Positions 54,747 to 57,869 of a stretch of DNA of 64,000 nucleotides are shown piece after piece. This stretch comes from Streptomyces sp. NRRL F-2580 (GTDB lineage: Bacteria > Actinomycetota > Actinomycetes > Streptomycetales > Streptomycetaceae): positions 310,001 through 374,000 of the forward strand of contig NZ_JOIR01000005.1 in assembly GCF_000720115.1 (NCBI RefSeq), given 5' to 3'. Made by a program: the position numbers and the translations under genes. The first letter of the stretch is position 1, and every line of letters begins with the position of its first letter. Below the pieces are notes generated by a model that was given only the letters and a program-made list of their open reading frames with translations, was not told the origin of the DNA and made no database searches.

Positions 54747-56354
54747 TCAGGAGGCCCAGGGCCAGTCCGCGTTCCGGCCGTCCTCGATCAGGGGGACCAT
54801 CCGGAAGGCCGCGTCGGTGAGCCCGCCGAAGGTGTGCCGGTTCCCGCCGCCGGAGGGGGCGTGCCCGACCCGGTGGCCGGCCAGGTTCCAGGTGTAGACG
54901 GGAACCGCGTCCGGCACCTCCGCCGTCGGGTCACCGCCGTGGCCGTACGAGGCGGCCTGCTCGTCGGTGACGATCAGTACCCGGTCGTGGTCCCGGTAGT
55001 GCTCCCTCACGGCCTGGGCCGTGTAGGTGCCGCCGAGGTCCCCGAAGCGCTCCAGCACCTTCAGCACGGACTCGCCCCGGCCGTACCGGACCGCCTGGCT
55101 CGTCGTACCGAACTGCACCAGGTCGGCGTGTTCGGCCCGCAGTGCCAGCGCGGCCCCGAACACGGCCGCCGCATCCGCCCGGTTGAGCTTCGAGCGGTCC
55201 GACAGCGGGGACCACATCGACCCGGACCGGTCGACGAGGACCAGCGTCCGGCCGGGCAGCGCCGGTACGTTGGCCAGCGAGTGGCCGAGCGCCTGCTCCA
55301 GCGGGTACGCCCAGCGCAGCGAGGGCGCGTGCTGATGGGCGGCCAGGTAGCGGAAGGGGAACTGCCGGGACCGGGCGACGACTTCCGGGTCGGAGATCCT
55401 CGCCGCGACCTGCGCGGCCACCGTGTCCGAGACCCCGGCCTGGTCGAAGTTGCGCAGGTTGCGCAGCAGCGCCATCGCGCCCATCGACGGGATGACCGCC
55501 TCCCAGGCCGCCGCGTCCATCGGTCCCTGCAGCCAGCCGGCCAGCGCCTCCCAGGTCATGCCGGCCTCCGCGAGCCGCTCCGCGCCGTCCGGGGCGAGGA
55601 CCACACCGCGCCGCTCGGAGACCGGCAGCTCCATCAGCGCCCGGTGGGCGGTGAGGGTGCGGTTGCCGGCCGGGACCCGCGCGCCGTCCGGGTTGTGCCG
55701 GCGGTCGAGGGCGTGGCGGAACAGCTCACCCTGCCAAGGCTTGTCCGGGTCGGGGGAGGCGTGCACGAGGTTGAGGACGTCGCCGAAGCGGTAGGCCTTG
55801 GAATCCGTGTCGTACTTCAGCAGCGAGGTGCCGGAGTAGAGCCGGCGCACGGCGTCGGCGATGCCGCGCTTGACGGGCTTGGGCACGCTCCGGCCGTACG
55901 TCGCCGTCCAGTACGCCAGCAGCTCACCGGGCTCGTCCGCGCGGCGCAGCACGGAGTCCACGACCTGGCGGTTCGAAGGCCCGTCGGTGGCGCCCGCGTC
56001 GAGCCGGGCCTTGACGTACTCGGCGGCGCCGACGAGGGAGGCGGTGCGCATGTTCGCGTCCCCGCGGAGCCAGCCCAGCAGACCGGCCGTCCACGCGGGA
56101 TCCTCGACGGCGAGGGTGCGCACGAGCGCGGCGAAGCGCTCGTCGCGGGCCTCGCCGCTCTCGTACGCGGTGCGCTGCGTCACGAAGTTGGCGACGGCGA
56201 GCAGGAACAGCTCGGAGCGGGGATCGCGCAGGTGGCCGGGGCCGCCCTGGCCGGTGCGGGCCCGGCCGGCCGAGCGTACGGGCGACGTGGGCGACGTGGC
56301 CGAAGCGGGCGACGCGGGCACGGACTTGGACGCCCGCAGGTTGAAACGAGCCAT
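54747..56354 (-). CDS. rsr: Ro60 / Rsr protein (TROVE domain plus vWA domain)
   Basis: A 535-residue Ro60 orthologue. After a Ser/Ala-rich leader, the TROVE HEAT-repeat ring starts near residue 47 (RSELFLLAVANFVTQRTAYE) and includes SVLRRADEPGELLAYWTATY. The C-terminal von Willebrand A domain carries the MIDAS motif LVLVDRSGSM (residues 371-380). Ro60 rings bind Y RNAs on the outer surface and misfolded RNA ends in the hole, and in bacteria they tether PNPase for RNA decay. ATG 56354 follows GGGGGGA. Three Y-RNA-like genes lie directly upstream on the same strand, as expected for an Ro60 locus. Confidence 0.93.
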   Translation of the reverse strand: MARFNLRASKSVPASPASATSPTSPVRSAGRARTGQGGPGHLRDPRSELFLLAVANFVTQRTAYESGEARDERFAALVRTLAVEDPAWTAGLLGWLRGDANMRTASLVGAAEYVKARLDAGATDGPSNRQVVDSVLRRADEPGELLAYWTATYGRSVPKPVKRGIADAVRRLYSGTSLLKYDTDSKAYRFGDVLNLVHASPDPDKPWQGELFRHALDRRHNPDGARVPAGNRTLTAHRALMELPVSERRGVVLAPDGAERLAEAGMTWEALAGWLQGPMDAAAWEAVIPSMGAMALLRNLRNFDQAGVSDTVAAQVAARISDPEVVARSRQFPFRYLAAHQHAPSLRWAYPLEQALGHSLANVPALPGRTLVLVDRSGSMWSPLSDRSKLNRADAAAVFGAALALRAEHADLVQFGTTSQAVRYGRGESVLKVLERFGDLGGTYTAQAVREHYRDHDRVLIVTDEQAASYGHGGDPTAEVPDAVPVYTWNLAGHRVGHAPSGGGNRHTFGGLTDAAFRMVPLIEDGRNADWPWAS

Positions 56355-56395: not shown

Positions 56396-56543
56396 CGTGC
56401 GGGATGCCCGAGATCAGAGGTCGGCGACGGACAAAGTCAGGTGCTCTGTCCAGCTGAGCTACCGGCCTGAGCCGGGCGGGATTCGAACCCGCCACCTCCT
56501 GATCCGGAAGGAGCCGTCGCCTGCGCACCGGGCATCCCGCACG
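56396..56543 (-). ncRNA. Y RNA with permuted tRNA-like module (third in the array)
   Basis: On the minus strand the ends form a perfect 15-bp stem (56529-56543 with 56396-56410). An internal loop follows with GTGCGCA on one side and GACCTCTGATCT on the other. A second perfect 8-bp stem GGCGACGG/CCGTCGCC then closes (56514-56521, 56423-56430). Inside are an anticodon-like arm (56496-56513, 8-nt loop), a perfect T arm with TTCGAAT loop (56475-56493), an acceptor-like hairpin closed by TCAG (56462-56475) and a D arm (56443-56459). This order is a circularly permuted tRNA, as in bacterial YrlA RNAs. It ends 42 nt before the Ro60 start. Confidence 0.85.
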
Positions 56544-56546
56544 CGG

Positions 56547-56619
56547 CCTCCCGAGATCAAGGGGGCGGCGGCCTGGAGATCTTCGCAAAAGAAGGAGCCG
56601 CAGCCCGCGCACCGGGAGG
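56547..56619 (-). ncRNA. short Y-like RNA without tRNA module (second in the array)
   Basis: On the minus strand a 7-bp closing stem CCTCCCG/CGGGAGG (56613-56619 with 56547-56553) is followed by the same internal loop as its neighbours, GTGCGC opposite CCTTGATCT. An inner stem GGGC-T-GCGGC/GCCGC-C-GCCC comes next. The apical part is a small hairpin around TTCTTTTGCGAAGA and contains no T-arm or D-arm sequence. It is 3 nt from the third RNA and 14 nt from the first. Confidence 0.7.
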
Positions 56620-56633
56620 TGCGTGACGTAGGT

Positions 56634-56767
56634 GTCCAGAGAACAAGGCCGGCGAAACCACAAGGTGCTCTGCCAGCTGAGCTACACCGGCACGATGCCG
56701 GTGACGGGACTCGAACCCGCGGCCGCCCGATTATGAGTCGAAGGAGGTCTCGCCTTCGCACCTGGAC
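56634..56767 (-). ncRNA. Y RNA with permuted tRNA-like module, CAU anticodon-type loop (first in the array)
   Basis: On the minus strand the closing stem GTCCAG/CTGGAC (56762-56767 with 56634-56639) leads to an internal loop GTGCGAA opposite GGCCTTGTTCT and an inner GGCGA/TCGCC stem. Then come an anticodon arm with loop CTCATAA (56726-56742), a T arm with TTCGAGT loop (56704-56720), an 8-bp acceptor stem closed by a TCG loop (56685-56703) and a D arm (56667-56682). The natural 5' and 3' tRNA ends are thus joined. It starts 10 nt after the NUDIX stop. Confidence 0.85.
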
Positions 56768-56777
56768 GAGGATCACG

Positions 56778-57209
56778 TTAGGCGGCGGGGCCGGGATCCA
56801 CCACGCAATTACTGAGCAGCGTCGGCACCATGACCGACGCGCCGTCCGTACCGCGCGAGAGCGGGACCCAGATCAGCCCGACCATCCGCGGGCAGTCGCA
56901 CTCCAGGTCCGCGTCGACGCCCAGGACCGGCTCGCCGGGCGCCACCTCCACGCGGAAGCAGGAGGTCCAGCCCGAGGGGTAGGGCGTTTCGTACGCGTAC
57001 CGCACGCCCAGGGCGCGCAGGCCGGTCTCCTCGGCCACCTCCCGCCGGACCGCCTCCTCGGGCTCCTCGCCGGCCTCCAGCCCGCCGCCGGGCAGGGTCC
57101 AGTACTCCGGCCCGTCGTGCCGCCCCGTGGCCCCCCTGCCGCGCTCGCGCACCATCAGCACGCAGCCGTCGCGGACGATGACCGCGGCGACCCGGCGCCG
57201 CTCCGTCAC
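56778..57209 (-). CDS. NUDIX hydrolase in the NADAR-Y RNA-Ro60 locus
   Basis: A 143-residue NUDIX protein, [20 protein letters not shown] at the start. The NUDIX box is [20 protein letters not shown] followed by TG. Substrates of this group include ADP-ribose, nucleoside diphosphate derivatives and sometimes capped RNA; none can be picked from sequence. The GTG start overlaps the NADAR stop by 4 nt. The Y RNA array begins 10 nt after its stop, so it is probably on the same transcript as the RNAs and Ro60. Confidence 0.87.
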
Positions 57210-57760
57210 GCGCCGTCCCCGCGCAGCCGCTCCCGGGCCTCCATCAGGGCGAAGCCCAGCAGGTTCAGCCCGCGCCAGCGCGCCGGGTCCAGGGCGCGCC
57301 CGTCGTCGGCGGCCAGACCGATGCCCCAGATCCGGTCCATCGGGCTCGCCTCCACCAGCACCCGGCTCCCGGTGCCCAGCAGGTACGAGCGCAGCGCCGG
57401 GTCGGAGCCGAACTTGTGCACGCTGCCCTCCACGACCAGGGCGAAGCGCTCCCGCTCCCATATCGCGTTGTCGAAGCCGCGCACGAGCCGCCCGGCCTTC
57501 TTCGCCTCCGCGGGGCTCTTCGCCGCGAGCGCGGCCCGCTCCCCCTCGGCGTCCCCGAACAGCCGGGCCTTGCCGGCCATCATCCAGTGCTCGGCCGTGG
57601 CATACCGGACGTCACCGACAGTGAAAGCGGACGGCCACCACTGGCTCAGGCAGCTCGGACCGAGCCTGCCGTCGGGCAGCGGCCGGTGCCCCCAGAAGGG
57701 CAGGTACTTCACCCGTTCACCGCGGCTGACCTGCTTGATCAGGTCCTCGATCATCTCCAT
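57206..57760 (-). CDS. NADAR-family protein (YbiA/DUF1768-like)
   Basis: A 184-residue protein of the NADAR family. Typical segments are [36 protein letters not shown] and [14 protein letters not shown] proteins are N-glycosidases or ADP-ribosyl-removing enzymes acting on NAD- or ADP-ribose-derived groups, and on riboflavin intermediates in fused forms. It is the first gene of the minus-strand NADAR-NUDIX-Y RNA-Ro60 unit. Its start is uncertain: ATG 57760 or ATG 57754. Confidence 0.85.
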
Positions 57761-57869
57761 GCACGCGAGTCTGGCAGTCGCCACTGACACTTCGTACGGG
57801 ATTTTCGGTGTGCCTCGACACATGGTCGACCGATTCCGTCGCGTAATCAAAAGGAAACAACGGAATCAC

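Follow-up and report, generated by a model that had tools for sequence, protein, structure and literature searches.

The 64,000-nt stretch of Streptomyces sp. NRRL F-2580 DNA analysed here (the window; G000:C5:310001-374000, within an 8.45 Mb genome) very probably contains an operon in which three Y RNAs with interchangeable heads, Y1, Y2 and Y3, precede rsr, the gene for the Ro60 orthologue. By their anatomy and their linkage to rsr, the predicted RNAs of this array are bacterial Y RNAs. All three would be built on a common chassis, consisting of a closing helix, an internal loop (GGUGCG/UGAUCU), an inner GC helix and the motif U-N-CUUC, and would differ in the head mounted on it: a complete permuted tRNA with an anticodon arm in Y1, a plain loop in Y2 and a permuted tRNA fused to the stem in Y3. 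Y1 and Y3 are predicted to be circularly permuted tRNA mimics on an Ro60-type chassis, and Y2 to be that chassis alone. Y1 appears to be a new YrlA-type variant, with a complete anticodon arm.

The genes are arranged on the minus strand in the transcription order NADAR, Nudix, Y1, Y2, Y3, rsr (Table 1). A sequence-only reading of this DNA had proposed three tandem minus-strand RNAs with gaps of 14 and 3 nt and closing stems of 6, 7 and 15 bp (Y1, Y2 and Y3, respectively), and the stems read from the sequence bear this out. The GGTGCG element facing TGTTCT or TGATCT and the inner GC stem that it described are seen in Y1, Y2 and Y3. It also placed Ro60 just beyond the array, correctly, but at 42 nt; we count 41 nt between the end of Y3 and the ATG of Rsr (56354). 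Finally, it sorted the RNAs into two kinds, whereas the inner domains are of three kinds. A PDB search returned two TROVE chains, 9kop and 9l5y (E 5.7e-29).

Table 1 Features of the Y RNA–rsr locus (window coordinates; tRNA numbering in brackets)
Feature	Position	Strand	Details
NADAR gene	57206-57850	-	
Nudix gene	56778-57209	-	overlaps NADAR gene by 4 nt
Promoter-like stretch	56775..56803	-	-10-like block TAACGT, 56775-56780, 7 nt before Y1 stem
Y1	56634-56767	-	6 bp closing stem
Y1 anticodon arm	56726..56740	-	stem CGA/UCG (29-31/39-41); loop CUCAUAA, 56731-56737
Y1 triplet CAU	56733-56735	-	within anticodon loop
Y1 GG (42-43)	56726-56727	-	pairs with CC, 56664-56665 (27-28)
Y1 T arm	56704..56720	-	loop UUCGAGU; covariation, unguided fold
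Y1 acceptor-like hairpin	56685..56703	-	7 bp; tRNA 3' end joined to 5' end (permutation joint)
Y1 D arm	56667..56682	-	covariation, unguided fold
Y2, short Y RNA with Ro60-type chassis	56547-56619	-	7 bp closing stem; 85.3 bits with own model
Y3	56396-56543	-	15 bp closing stem
Y3 anticodon stem	UCAGG 56498-56502 / CCUGA 56437-56441	-	continues into Ro60-type stem; no anticodon loop
rsr, Ro60 orthologue	54747..56354	-	535 aa; Pfam TROVE E 2.7e-15

The chassis is conserved. A protein search with Rsr gave 298 relatives, of which the best 80, all named Streptomyces loci, were used; the 67 Y1 sequences discussed below are those of the window and of 66 of these loci. GGTGCG is retained in 66 of 67 Y1, 74 of 74 Y2 and 71 of 73 Y3. 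The motif U-N-CUUC, 3' of the inner stem, is present in every copy (67/67 Y1, 74/74 Y2 and 73/73 Y3) and is a second conserved site beside the Ro60-type internal loop. U-N-CUUC also occurs in the listed phage and plasmid Y RNA modules, which were selected partly by that motif.

In an Rfam search at E ≤ 10, the YrlA family (RF02553) matched Y3 (50.6 bits, E 1.9e-10) and Y1 (34.9 bits, E 6.4e-6), each aligning to the entire model (1-114). At Rfam gathering thresholds no match is found in the window, the RF02553 cut-off of 69 bits lying above both scores, and none to RF02553 in six related loci either. Further models were built from the relatives, the window copies included: in a scan of the window, the Y3 model scores Y3 at 148.4, Y1 at 70.4 and the next match at 15.0 bits, and the Y2 model scores Y2 at 85.3, Y3 at 36.7 and then 19.2 bits. 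Together, the YrlA matches and these scores argue that the array is not due to chance. A further YrlA match in the same genome, C11:253374, was rejected, as it covers two ordinary tandem tRNA genes.

The head of Y1 begins with the anticodon arm, followed by a 5-nt variable region ending with C48, the T arm and the 3' strand of the acceptor; a short loop then leads to the acceptor 5' strand, U8, A9, the D arm, A26, C27 and C28. Judging from this geometry and from the pairing, the chain would be opened between tRNA positions 28 and 29. The arm is what sets Y1 apart from YrlA as modelled in RF02553: relative to the model, Y1 has a 15-nt insertion, which forms part of it.

Folding of single sequences is of little help here. 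Minimum-energy folding of the window copies gives z values of -0.36 (Y1), -1.91 (Y2) and -4.43 (Y3), the proposed folds lie above the minimum-energy folds by 8 (Y1) and 11.5 (Y3) kcal/mol, and the anticodon-arm pieces in isolation fold weakly or not at all. As structural proof, this approach was discarded as uninformative for Y1, and covariation was therefore used. Compensatory changes across other Streptomyces, whose absence would have refuted the sequence-only reading, were checked for and are present in the stems of Y1, Y2 and Y3. The Y1 alignment comprised 40 sequences, the window's and 39 retained on thinning the other 66; in it, 99.3% of cells pair, compared with 29.9-43.4% when slid, and 7 of 27 pairs show double changes. 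Within the arm, pair 30-40 is C-G in 27, G-C in 11 and gapped in 2 of the 40 sequences, pair 31-39 is A-U in 35, G-C in 2 and gapped in 3, and pair 43-27 is G-C in 37, C-G in 1 and gapped in 2. The Y1 inner stem was omitted from this count because MAFFT shifted its 3' side; taking the best-fitting 3' piece, its complementarity is 9/9 in 19 and 8/9 in 48 of the 67 Y1. Pairing reaches 94.3% in Y2, with double changes in 5 of 16 pairs (53 sequences, the window plus 52 of 73), and 96.0% in Y3 with a standard D arm (42 sequences), with double changes in 20 of 42 pairs and 126 cells. Unguided RNAalifold on Y1 recovered the outer stem plus the anticodon, T, acceptor and D arms; it did not return the inner stem, placing a three-pair hairpin there.

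Evolution of the Y1 head was followed on an rsr tree (79 rows, quick method, SH-aLRT support only), where, because of recombination, counts of changes are not strict mutation counts. The anticodon loop has the consensus C-U-NNN-A/C-A. Position 32 changed once and positions 33 and 38 never, compared with at least 19 changes at 34, at least 16 at 35, four at 36 and ten at 37. The T loop is invariant over 66 tree rows save at one site (nine changes) and another (one change).

One rival holds that this is an ordinary YrlA array and that the additional Y1 hairpin arose by chance or is neutral, with no link to an anticodon arm. Position 37 of a tRNA is normally a purine, and 12 of 63 Y1 loops carry C37; the arm is lost or altered in the 4 of 67 Y1 that fail our text test for a tRNA-spaced arm; and YrlA, in the parts of PMC8394870 drawn on here, is described with D, T and acceptor arms only. 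This rival is nevertheless unlikely. The tRNA spacing (a 7-nt loop, 42-43 and a 5-nt variable region) is found in 63 of 67 Y1 and in 0 of 73 Y3, and position 33 never changes in the Y1 alignment, which was not selected for it.

A second rival takes the opposite view, that Y1 is a true permuted tRNA gene matured to a working tRNA. It would account for the four arms, for the near-constancy of U8, A14, U33, C48 and most T-loop sites, and for the N-CCA found at the joint, immediately 3' of position 72, in 7 of 67 Y1. We regard it as very improbable. CCA is absent from the joint in the other 60, the window's Y1 included; the acceptor hairpin, of 7 bp in 65 of 67 Y1, is closed by a loop of 4-8 nt in all 65 measured; ARAGORN calls no tRNA in the window, where RF00005 reaches only 20 bits against a cut-off of 29; the rsr tree implies at least 29 changes of the triplet (a count of the triplet alone); and the module is fused to a conserved Ro60-type stem. 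The preferred reading remains that of a tRNA mimic carried by a Y RNA. The seven loci with N-CCA (L057, L059, L090, L092, L095, L098 and L106) have a joint resembling a fossil or mimic of a tRNA 3' end. A single parent tRNA for Y1 was sought and rejected, as the head is a mosaic (in the window, tRNA-His 94 and tRNA-Met 83), and none is claimed. An enrichment of natural anticodons (17 of 18 triplet types, P 0.011, kinship uncorrected) is not relied on.

Y3 is predicted to be a classic YrlA, and a new member of that class. Its anticodon stem pairs across the ends of the module, and all five pairs show double changes. A feature of Y3 is the turnover of its head. Over 72 tree rows, 47 D arms are of the standard type, 18 resemble that of tRNA-Leu and 7 that of initiator Met (the last being the count used, since a bin of 9 labelled 'fMet/Asp' includes standard D arms, for example L035), and the rsr tree shows at least 14 changes of type; array makeup changed at least 18 times. 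When compared with the 44 isoacceptor labels of the genome that holds the window, all 19 Leu-type D arms have a tRNA-Leu as their best match; a long variable region is found in 12 of 19 Leu-type Y3 compared with 0 of 54 others (P 2.7e-9, kinship uncorrected). Parentage is clear for the Leu-type and Met-type D arms only; the rankings of parent tRNAs for Y3 are rough, because in some Y3, including that of the window, the acceptor finder put the hairpin in the wrong place.

The head of Y3 changes while its chassis is kept. In the close relatives L031 and L033, the Y3 module is 55% alike, compared with 96% for the chassis, 99% for Y1 and 96% for Y2. Among 15 hand-picked Y3 pairs, the 7 of the same type are 79-96% alike in the chassis and 79-98% in the module, and the 8 of different type are 68-96% alike in the chassis and 23-68% in the module (a truncated match spoils L072/L092, and the cut is misplaced in L077/L088 and L035/L043). 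The simplest explanation would be that strains exchange cassettes; copying of the heads from tRNA genes is possible. In one locus (L072:1643-1845), Y3 has the joint between acceptor and D arm repeated several times.

Y2 is the shortest of the three, at 73 nt. T, D and acceptor arms were sought in it and none was found, and no Rfam family matched its minus strand at E ≤ 10. We therefore class Y2, by its predicted anatomy, as a short Y RNA rather than a YrlA.

The triple array is common in the genus Streptomyces and no peculiarity of NRRL F-2580; S. avidinii (L032) is among the other species with the array. Counting profile matches of at least 40 bits, the best 80 of the 298 rsr loci comprise 55 with Y1-Y2-Y3, 12 with Y2-Y3, 5 with Y1-Y2, 5 with Y1-Y3, and one each with Y1 alone, Y2 alone or none, so that Y1 is present in 66 and at least one Y element in 79 of these 80; in the exception, L079, the contig begins at rsr. 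The genes around the window's array are less constant: its NADAR, aldehyde dehydrogenase, DUF4190 and adenosine deaminase neighbours are present in 18 of the same 80 loci, a few of which are incomplete. Array and rsr thus stay together while the neighbourhood changes. The upstream genes were considered and rejected as general members of the system, NADAR being found at 18 and Nudix at 5 of the best 80 of 298 loci.

Linkage to Rsr extends to whole genomes. Most of the 295 genomes of the genus give a weak match to model R2 (about 1e-6 to 1e-9), probably often from tandem tRNAs, and the line for a positive was therefore drawn far below, at a Y3-model match of E ≤ 2e-10; one genome, G165, was scored positive at 1.1e-10. 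With Rsr counted at E ≤ 1e-100, 147 genomes are Rsr-positive and 139 Y-positive: both are found in 134, Rsr without Y in 13, Y without Rsr in 5 and neither in 143. Three of the five Y-only genomes show, respectively, an Rsr C-terminal remnant (last codons, judged by eye), an Rsr broken into two pieces and no match. Together with the YrlA matches, the 55 triple arrays among 80 loci and the covariation, this co-occurrence upholds the original proposal of Y-RNA-like genes upstream of Ro60. In a sample of the phylum (396 genomes), an Rsr match at E ≤ 1e-20 occurs in 9 genomes, covering 2 of 236 genera, and the sole match outside the genus is accompanied by two YrlA-type matches.

As would be expected of an operon, the three Y genes and rsr all read in the same direction behind a single promoter-like site, which lies before Y1. 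A -35-like block, judged by eye, lies about 17 nt upstream of the -10-like block. A TANNNT block is found 7-9 nt 5' of the Y1 stem in 66 of 67 Y1, at exactly 7 nt in 62, compared with a background rate of 0.0014 for such a match; the sole Y1 without it is that of L100. Of 13 arrays beginning with Y2, 12 have a comparable block no more than 60 nt ahead of Y2. The NADAR and Nudix genes run up to the promoter-like site, and the Nudix stop codon lies inside the -10-like block. The single site, the common strand and the 41 nt to the rsr start would also suit an array that is not a set of separate RNAs but a cis-acting leader controlling rsr. This is the least probable of the alternatives, and a highly improbable one: the stems are three and separately closed, in some viral loci the Y matches come after the Ro60 gene (see below), and in eight loci whose Rsr relative is 64-75% identical, one short Y RNA (40.7-50.8 bits with the Y2 model) takes the place of the array, the Y3 model giving no match above 41 bits in them.

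Y1-type RNAs with a predicted anticodon arm are also found around Ro60 in phages and plasmids. Rsr relatives (E ≤ 1e-5) occur in 79 of 50,697 phage and 56 of 72,556 plasmid records, and each of the six phage and three plasmid stretches inspected has a Y-model match (E ≤ 0.1) near rsr. In two phages, an annotated tRNA-Ser(gct) (L238:1196-1269) and tRNA-Arg(tct) (L240:1129-1200) lie inside YrlA matches, and ARAGORN makes the same two calls there, a point that would speak for working tRNAs. Given the Ro-like gene beside them, these two, at least, of the annotated phage 'tRNAs' are probably misannotated parts of Y RNAs. In Streptomyces phage Kela (L242:669-1421), an annotated RNA ligase lies directly 5' of the Ro-like gene, an arrangement that recalls RNA-repair operons.

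Among loci around Ro60 in viral contigs (best 80 of 254, a few of which look duplicate), 65 contain tRNA-like modules by a text search, 85 in total, and 43 of these modules, in 39 loci, carry an anticodon arm, compared with 0.96% of shuffled segments; the rule for an arm requires pairing, U33 and A38, the controls for this being the shuffles and the Y3 set only. Of twelve stem forms listed, ten are entirely Watson-Crick. In the loops, every A37 (34 of 34) is preceded by U36, and 6 of 7 G37 are preceded by G36; for the 9 and 3 distinct loops this gives P 0.0045 (kinship uncorrected). The same identities go together in real tRNAs. Both the frequency of the arm and this association count further against a chance loop. 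Position 37 is less strict in the Streptomyces Y1 than in the viral loops. The order is reversed in some viral loci (for example L264-L267, L279, L291 and L316), with the Ro60 gene ahead of the Y matches.

How might such an operon work? In YrlA, a large stem serves Rsr and another domain resembles D, T and acceptor arms; DusA and TruB modify the RNA, which tethers PNPase, according to the portion of PMC8394870 used here, where a YrlA crystal structure (PDB 6CU1) is also named. In the present array, the Y RNAs would be made and Rsr would bind their common stem. By analogy with YrlA, the heads would recruit different partners, such as PNPase and tRNA-modifying enzymes, and Ro60 would thereby gain several interchangeable effectors. 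Dihydrouridine and pseudouridine are tRNA modifications that a YrlA would carry; T- and D-loop sequences are present in Y1 and Y3. As for the anticodon arm, most likely it would let readers of anticodon loops, that is, modification enzymes and anticodon nucleases, see Y1, as a decoy or a sensor. In the part of PMC7790460 used here, Salmonella YrlA fragments were not seen when tRNAs were cut by an induced anticodon nuclease, and YrlA might inhibit the nuclease. We put forward, tentatively and as something more likely wrong than right, that Y1-type RNAs are tethered anticodon-loop decoys or sensors displayed by Ro60 to enzymes that cut or modify such loops, that in phages, where this device sits next to the tRNA genes, it serves to weaken defences based on tRNA cleavage, and that the turnover of Y1 triplets and Y3 heads (Leu-like, initiator-Met-like and standard) reflects an arms race. 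Y1-type RNAs sharpen the question of what Ro60 tethers a tRNA mimic to, and anticodon-arm Y RNAs with varying triplets beside Ro60 in bacteria, plasmids and phages make it testable.

Y RNAs have been reviewed (PMC4726728, seen in part), and in mycobacteria yrlA is named a candidate acquired RNA in the section of PMC9569102 used here. The array had been thought not described for Streptomyces; searches of titles and abstracts returned no publication on a Streptomyces Y array, and the survey of Chen et al. 2014 (cited in PMC7790460), which lies outside their coverage, may contain it. With YrlA, Y1 and Y3 share the Ro60 linkage, the stem and the permuted T, acceptor and D arms; the present locus differs in having three RNAs with three heads in one array, scoring under the gathering cut-off. 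Y2 resembles the short bacterial Y RNAs in its Ro60-type stem and internal loop without a tRNA domain, a likeness of anatomy rather than of direct comparison with YrlB or the Deinococcus RNA, Y2 having no Rfam family. The Deinococcus Y RNA is such a short form. Circularly permuted tRNA genes occur in archaea and red algae. Like them, Y1 and Y3 have the tRNA 3' half ahead of the 5' half; unlike them, they are fused to an Ro60-type stem, have their acceptor ends joined by a short loop and show no sign of maturation into a tRNA.

Finally, two tandem permuted tRNA-like modules (29.5 and 28.1 bits with RF02553) lie elsewhere in the same genome (L168:3749-4036; G000:C18:191748-192035), just 3' of a DUF7873 gene (PF25283, E 1.2e-121) and away from the genome's only Rsr match. 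This locus is possibly another system employing permuted tRNA mimics.
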